Source of the DNA: Gautieria morchelliformis
Lineage: Eukaryota > Basidiomycota > Agaricomycetes > Gomphales > Gomphaceae
NCBI GenBank assembly: GCA_015179125.1
Contig: WHVA01000155.1
Location: 62,001 to 126,000, forward strand
Length of the DNA stretch: 64,000 nucleotides
Reading direction: 5' to 3'
Shown: piece by piece, positions 43,638 to 45,234 of the stretch
Position numbering within the stretch: position 1 is the stretch's first letter
How the letters are laid out: each line of letters opens with the position of its first letter
The notes under the pieces: generated by a model
Seen by the model: the letters and a program-made list of their open reading frames with translations, nothing else
Told to the model about the DNA's origin: nothing
The model's database searches: none
Translations under genes and position numbers: made by a program

Positions 43638-45234
43638 TTATGCATCGCTGCTCCCCTTTCCTCGCTCTTTCTTTTTCCTCTTCTTCTTGTTGTCTCCTTC
43701 GCCATCCTCGTCTCTCTCTTTCCGCTTCTTCTTTTGCTTTTCCTCCACTGTCGGCTCCGTCTCTTCCACAGGCGCCGCGAATGCCTCCGCGCGTTCTGCC
43801 TGTCGCTTTCTGGCAACGTCCGCTTGCTACATTATAACAGGTATTACTAGTCGCAGAAAAATAACATCTTTGCTATGCCACGTACCTTTTGCTTTCGCTG
43901 TGCAGCTTCGCGTTTCTCCTTTTCTCGTGGCTTGAGGAAGTATTCCCCTGACTCCAGTTGTTGATCGATCTATTGAAAAAAGTTTGTCGGAAATTGACGT
44001 AATGGCGATAGTTGAGATATAGTTTACCTTCCTCGGTAATTGTGGCGGTGGAAATGGGGTGTAAACTTTCTTCTTCGGTTTCTCTTTCTCAGACCCATTG
44101 GCAATTGGTGCAACAACAGACCCTGACGTCCCTGTGGCCTGTGAGCGAGCAGCCTGCTTCTCCGCGAGGAGGTCGTTCTTCTTGGCTGTCTTTTCGGAGG
44201 TGCTGAGATGTTTACGGCGGAATTGTGGAAGGAACCGATCCCATGACTCGGTGGCAAGTTTGGGGTCTTTCGCCAGCTCACGTCGTATCATGAACCTCTG
44301 TGGGAGCCGTTCAGCACAAGAACTGAAACCAGCATTACATGATGTCACCTTGATGTGGTAGATAGGGTGTATATTCTTCATGCAATCTAGTACTATTCGC
44401 CGTACTTCTTTTAGGGATTTGTAAGGCCCCATGACGCTTACTGTACTGCCTTGCACAAGCACGTAGCACGAAGTTAACAATTCGATTGCCTATCACAGTG
44501 ATAAGTACCGAAGGTTTGAGTTGCTTCGTGGCCCTCACCTTCAGTGTGCTCCCATCAGGCCCTATGATCCTCTGCCGTCGTTTCACAAATCTCTCCTTGT
44601 TCCGTACCAAGTTTCCGATTTTTATTATGTCGCAAGCAACACCATCATCTAAAATCTTGACCGCTTGGGCAACAGCAACACCTCTGGCTAGAAGCTTGAT
44701 CATATCTCGTGCCTTGAAGATAACATATGGATCATATGTTTTCCGAGTTGTGCGAACAGCCATAGAACCATTTAGTAGGTCCAATGTGCATGCGATTCCC
44801 TATGGACATCTTGTTAAACCAGGAATCGAGTTGATTATTTTCCTTACGCAAGTTTCCAGTGCTCTAGTGACTGCTCCCCATACCTCTCGTAGATACTTTT
44901 CTCGATATTTTGGGAAGAGTGTCGCAAACGAGGATTCTGTGGCGAATGTACCAGCTGGATTGTCCTCTAGTTTGAACGGCTCCACATGCCACTGTGCCAG
45001 TATCAGTCGGACATAGCACTATATTAGAAGAGCAATTCTTACGCTGCAAATGACACAATTGAGGCGCGAAATCGAAGGAAGAGCATAAAACTCACTGGTC
45101 GATGTCGTCCGTGTCCCAGGCTTGGGTTCAATAAGCTCGAGTCTTCTAAAGATGCCGAAAGACCCACGCTTCTCTTTCCTATGTCTCTTGTTCTTGTTCA
45201 CAACGGGTGCCTCCTCCAAGTCCTCTGCCGCCAT
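43638..45234 (-). CDS. KRR1: KRR1 small-subunit processome KH-domain protein
   Basis: KRR1 is a nucleolar KH protein needed for 18S rRNA processing and 40S assembly. The exons read [20 protein letters not shown], then [165 protein letters not shown] and [12 protein letters not shown]. The tail is Lys-rich. The order and motifs follow yeast and human KRR1. At least eight introns of about 48-65 bp are present. Between DDID and WHVEPF only a single-base exon at 45043 keeps the frame. It is divergent from the NCBP3-like gene. Confidence 0.95.
45043..45043 (-). other. KRR1: Putative one-nucleotide exon of KRR1
   Basis: Exon 2 ends CA at 45096 before a 52-nt GTGAGT...TTTGCAG intron (45044-45095). 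A lone C (45043) is followed at once by a 51-nt GTAAGA...GCACAG intron (44992-45042), and the next exon begins TGGCATGTG at 44991. CA+C spells His in the conserved DDID-H-W context. Every other acceptor I tried after the GTGAGT donor runs into a stop within nine codons. Confidence 0.7.

Follow-up and report, generated by a model that had tools for sequence, protein, structure and literature searches.

The window analyzed here is a stretch of 64,000 nucleotides from Gautieria morchelliformis, a truffle-like mushroom of the Gomphales (Agaricomycetes), and its minus strand carries KRR1, a ribosome-assembly gene. Our model of this gene comprises nine exons and eight introns, the latter being 47, 52, 51, 48, 49, 51, 58, and 59 nt long, and the protein deposited for the species (JB92DRAFT_2935891, hereafter P0001) is identical to it at 392 of 393 residues. 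A phmmer search with P0001 as the query, which is one residue off the window model, matched the yeast Krr1 of solved structures, a component of the small-subunit processome, with E = 4e-126. A search of the 122-Mb Gautieria genome for a second KRR1 locus found none. The features of the locus are as follows.

43638..45234, minus strand: KRR1, ATG at 45234, stop at 43638, 393 aa
45168..45234, minus strand: exon 1, 67 nt, 22 residues plus 1 nt; matches P0001
45121..45167, minus strand: intron 1, 47 nt, GTGGGT...CCCAAG; the joined sequence matches P0001
45096..45120, minus strand: exon 2, 25 nt, encoding PWDTDDID plus CA, phase 2 end; motif kept in relatives
45044..45095, minus strand: intron A, 52 nt, donor GTGAGT at 45095, acceptor TTTGCAG ending at 45044
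45063-45059, minus strand: branch-like CTCAA in intron A, resembling the branch-site consensus
45043, minus strand: candidate one-nucleotide exon (exon 3), C, third base of the His31 codon CA/C
44992..45042, minus strand: intron B, 51 nt, donor GTAAGA at 45042, acceptor GGCACAG ending at 44992
45006-45002, minus strand: branch-like CTGAT in intron B, resembling the same consensus
44848..44991, minus strand: exon 4, 144 nt, WHVEPF...ALETC
44800..44847, minus strand: intron after exon 4, 48 nt, GTAAGG...CCATAG
43638..44799, minus strand: last five exons and four introns (49-59 nt); the protein part is identical to P0001

Outside the region of the one-nucleotide exon, the rest of KRR1 gives an unbroken reading. 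Exon 2 (45096-45120) is itself a 25-nt microexon.

A preliminary description of this DNA had proposed two adjoining introns of 52 and 51 nt with good splice sites, leaving a single C at 45043 as an exon. All of these sites are present, and in the sequence TTTGCAG/C/GTAAGA a full acceptor and a full donor are separated by exactly one base. The further claim that the C finishes a His codon and links DDID to WHVEPF is borne out by the joined codons GAC CAC TGG (D-H-W). Likewise, skipping both introns together had been said to reach a stop within nine codons, and we indeed obtained DDIDHGMWSRSN followed by a stop after that joining. Retention of intron A gives DDIDQ and a stop, and retention of intron B gives DDIDHVRIALLI and a stop. 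Because every product in which the exon is skipped, or in which one or both introns are retained, terminates no more than nine codons past DDID, only the two-step product would make KRR1.

The description had also found no other AG that works, and our enumeration likewise uncovered no alternative GT-AG solution that keeps the conserved motifs. Single GT-AG or GC-AG introns of 30-200 nt, for which solely solutions retaining PWDTDD were counted, yielded none that keeps both PWDTDD and the downstream ESSFATL frame. With two GT-AG introns of at least 30 nt and a middle exon of at most 60 nt, three solutions were obtained in total, and all three use the C at 45043; the best gives DDIDHWHVEPF, and the remaining two drop 4 and 9 residues after the His. 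The statement that this frame is conserved from yeast to man stands for yeast, where KPWDTDDIDKW is kept, but fails for human, whose protein lacks the motif.

For a chance estimate, the 104-nt stretch was shuffled 20,000 times with its dinucleotides preserved, and the shuffles were scanned with both halves required to be at least 40 nt long. The loose motif AGNGT occurred in 4.7% of the 20,000 shuffles; YAG-N-GTRNG was found in 0.23% and YAG-N-GTRAG, the form present here, in 0.055%, both stricter forms having been picked after the site was seen.

Relatives were represented by 134 different KRR1 proteins from two protein searches (the top 120 out of 6,878 matches in one and out of 7,008 in the other), and those that are named are presumably Agaricomycetes. 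By source, the 134 listed proteins comprise 26 transcript-like ones (i.e., proteins solely from lgn- or jgi-marked sources) and 108 from genome annotations. We classed the lgn and jgi entries as transcript-like on the grounds that their contigs can accommodate a KRR1 frame without breaks. The longest contig measures 1.2-2.1 kb for 22 of the proteins and 4-9 kb for four (P0048, P0057, P0070, and P0072), and these entries appear to be transcripts from Agaricomycetes. Three of the 26 have contigs with <100 nt beyond the coding length, which are therefore too short for two introns of ~50 nt.

All 26 transcript-like proteins listed read DDID-H-W, with a single H before the W. Among the 108 listed genome-annotated proteins, 38 have Q, 31 a clean H, 2 have R, and 37 have something else, namely insertions of 1 to 14 residues (n = 30), no W (n = 3), a skipped exon 2 (n = 3), or a start at the W (n = 1). 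For clean H, the comparison of 26/26 transcript-like with 31/108 genome-annotated listed proteins gives a Fisher p of 3.3e-12, in which ancestry is not corrected for. Indels were counted over residues 22-250 of the listed proteins, each event once per protein and position. In the genome models, 34 of 43 events fall at residues 30-32, and the transcript-like proteins have none in the whole range; three more, at residues 22-23, are probably due to the three models that skip exon 2. Exon 2 and the one-nucleotide exon are both missing from P0041 (Clathrus), P0119 (Athelia), and P0123 (an Auriculariales species), all of them genome models. P0024, a transcript-like protein of the Suillus type with H, shares 98% identity with the genome models of both Suillus luteus (P0050, with Q) and S. 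brevipes (P0026, with HT), and 97% with that of S. weaverae (P0029, with H). In addition, the Ramaria rubella protein P0002 is 5' partial, and its first residue is exactly the W.

The single residue at which P0001 departs from our model is residue 31, where it has Q and the one-nucleotide exon gives H; since the two are otherwise identical, the deposited protein agrees with every junction other than that of the one-nucleotide exon. If the deposited model were correct, KRR1 would contain one non-canonical intron of 103 nt (GT...CA or TG...AG), and CAG would encode a genuine Q, as the Q in 38 of the 108 listed genome models, P0001 included, might be read to indicate. However, the 103-nt removal has six equivalent placements, and none of them has GT-AG ends. 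Moreover, Q occurs in 0 of the 26 transcript-like proteins, and the Suillus models conflict within the genus (Q, HT, H, and HYFSLYLSS). We therefore regard such an intron as highly improbable and infer that Q31 is an annotation patch, although it could also stem from a C-bearing transcript mapped to the genome with one mismatch. A purine one-nucleotide exon (AG-A/G-GT) was considered as a source of the deposited Q, and the stretch examined holds no such site. In Auricularia and Exidia (P0054 and P0079), the residue at this site is R rather than H or Q; it may be real, or the same annotation trick may have produced it by joining CG to the G of the donor.

An assembly error, in which a missing or extra base puts an ordinary 104-nt intron out of frame, is hardly credible. 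A single missing base would have the same effect, but the conflict recurs in the annotations of many other genomes (75 of the 108 listed models have Q or are disturbed), and an intron of 104 nt would be an outlier beside the other KRR1 introns of 47-59 nt. A nested twin intron (stwintron), described in ascomycetes, in which an intron sits inside a splice site of a second intron, can also be set aside as scarcely conceivable: consecutive excision is likely at the KRR1 site too, but introns A and B each have an intact donor and acceptor with a coding base between them, and neither intron disrupts a donor, branch point, or acceptor belonging to the other.

Collectively, the sequence, the frame logic, and the protein patterns make it very probable that the one-nucleotide exon of KRR1 is real, and a constitutive exon is the best reading; the splicing itself, the order of its steps, and the class-wide DNA structure are what we infer from these. 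Across junctions 45096^45043 and 45043^44991, cDNA of the one-nucleotide-exon product would read GACCACTGGCAT, and cDNA reading GACCAGTGG would be contrary to it.

Some faulty models may carry traces of the splice sites themselves. Splicing to the intron A acceptor with read-through of the intron B donor should yield a protein with H (CA/Y), then V (GTN), and often S (AGY). Listed models of Phanerochaete carnosa, Trametes versicolor, Amanita inopinata, and Chiua virens have HVS, and those of Cristinia and Blastosporella have HVT and HVR, respectively. All four listed Rhizoctonia models (P0121, P0122, P0125, and P0127) have HAS, with at most one extra residue before the W, as a second donor GCAAGT (i.e., a GC-AG intron) after the one-nucleotide exon would give. 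In six listed models (Piloderma, Cristinia, Coniferiporia, Hypholoma, Clavulina, and Termitomyces), the insertion ends with Q before the W, as a retained acceptor in CAG/TGG would give. The faulty models with H number 21 among those listed, and the next residue is V in seven, A in five, and neither in nine; V or A in 12 of 21 corresponds to a binomial p of 9e-6, with the four related Rhizoctonia rows uncorrected. The species with these traces span what we take to be about seven orders, and the read-through seen as HVS and HAS suggests that the flanking splice sites may be conserved in the relatives.

The exon seems not to be peculiar to the Gautieria genome because the junction is disturbed in many Agaricomycetes annotations. 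Judging from the proteins, wide conservation within Agaricomycetes is quite likely, and the exon may be ancient there. The 31 genome models with a clean H may either contain the exon or have lost its introns. We anticipate that many or most members of the class probably share one layout, with CA ending in phase 2, an exon of C or T, and TGG in phase 0, and that the exon is probably mis-annotated frequently across mushroom genomes.

With respect to the outgroup, a third protein search, aimed at other basidiomycete classes, provided 117 new proteins, mainly from ascomycetes and mammals and including Calcarisporiella, along with 3 repeats, instead of reaching Tremellomycetes, Dacrymycetes, Ustilaginomycotina, and Pucciniomycotina. 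The residue at the site is K in 105, H in 2, and R in 1, and nine metazoan-type proteins are without the motif. Exactly one residue thus occupies the site in 108 of 117, and none is disturbed, a weak control given the many yeasts and mixed sources. In yeasts, which make up many of these entries, we presume that KRR1 is probably intronless at this point. Schizosaccharomyces japonicus and Calcarisporiella have H, so that His at this KRR1 site also occurs outside Agaricomycetes and could be of old origin. The idea that His arose to compensate for a lost base is weakened by the same two cases. Scanning bacterial and archaeal genome contigs for KRR1 DNA uncovered one locus (L002; residues 83-350, 48% identity), a KRR1-like stretch on a contig of a cyanobacterial MAG (Trichormus sp.), which is probably eukaryotic contamination; the exact core motifs were not found in its three forward frames. 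The scan of viral contigs gave no locus.

Mechanistically, when two introns sit one base apart, binding of U1 to the downstream donor would mask the acceptor just before it. At KRR1, U1 at the donor of intron B would hide the AG of the intron A acceptor, and simultaneous recognition would probably be impossible. Since joint recognition would be hard, we postulate that introns A and B are removed sequentially, as ordinary U2-type introns excised in turn. Removal of intron A first would create CAC/GTAAGA, a normal donor, and the reverse order would lead to the identical mRNA, with GAC CAC TGG (D-H-W). It is also conceivable, if doubtful, that Agaricomycetes have retained the exon from their origin onward as a splicing checkpoint on KRR1, whereby KRR1 output and ribosome assembly would track splicing capacity, with failures stopping early. 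Simple persistence of the arrangement is likelier than a checkpoint because the loss of either intron alone would be harmless only when exact.

The preliminary description knew of no one-nucleotide exon in fungal KRR1, and no such report was found among the open full-text papers listed (in two of the searches, 20 of 74 and 15 of 5,432), nor was one found there for any nuclear basidiomycete gene. Nevertheless, the KRR1 exon is not the first one-nucleotide exon reported in fungi, as Nelson and Syed (2026) described one in Fusarium CYP621A, which they call the first in a fungal gene (PMC12940212). It is common to the CYP621A orthologues of Fusarium and lies in a composite intron of 139 nt, compared with a median intron of 56 nt in F. 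graminearum, and, like the KRR1 exon, it is needed for the frame and was missed by annotation (PMC12940212). The two differ in that CYP621A is an ascomycete P450 of unknown function with a G in the middle of a Gly codon, known from one genus and backed by RNA reads (PMC12940212), whereas KRR1 is a basidiomycete ribosome-assembly gene in which a C completes a His codon and the exon is apparently found across the class. Single-nucleotide exons have also been described between group II introns of the mitochondrial rnl gene in Ophiostoma, with Ceratocystis cited (PMC12308204); in a Ceratocystis paper (PMC8208691), the term occurs solely in the reference list. As in KRR1, one base stands between two complete introns, but rnl is a mitochondrial rRNA gene and KRR1 a nuclear protein gene with GT-AG introns (PMC12308204).

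The plant precedent named in the description, Arabidopsis APC11, does have a constitutive one-nucleotide exon in a conserved gene, similar to KRR1 (Guo and Liu 2015, PMC4674806). That exon lies in a composite intron of 422 nt and was established by cDNA and minigene mutants, in contrast to the genomic evidence for KRR1 (PMC4674806). The one-nucleotide microexons of plant APC11 and VPS55 are kept across diverse land plants and, like that of KRR1, are absent from reference annotations (Yu et al. 2022, PMC8831610). VPS55 has conserved GTRAGT donors, and both plant genes have RNA-seq and RT-PCR support (PMC8831610). Some plants produce VPS55 isoforms that include the one-nucleotide exon and others that lack it, and most APC11 genes of monocots have no introns (PMC8831610).

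If confirmed, this would be the first known nuclear one-nucleotide exon in a basidiomycete within the open literature searched; it lies in a gene for ribosome assembly, and its wide conservation in one fungal class is probable. It would also account for the discrepancy at this single position among KRR1 proteins from many public mushroom genomes, and it could serve as a benchmark for annotation tools. The species that carry it would form a natural panel for studying how the spliceosome handles introns one base apart, in which order they are removed, and why such an arrangement persists.
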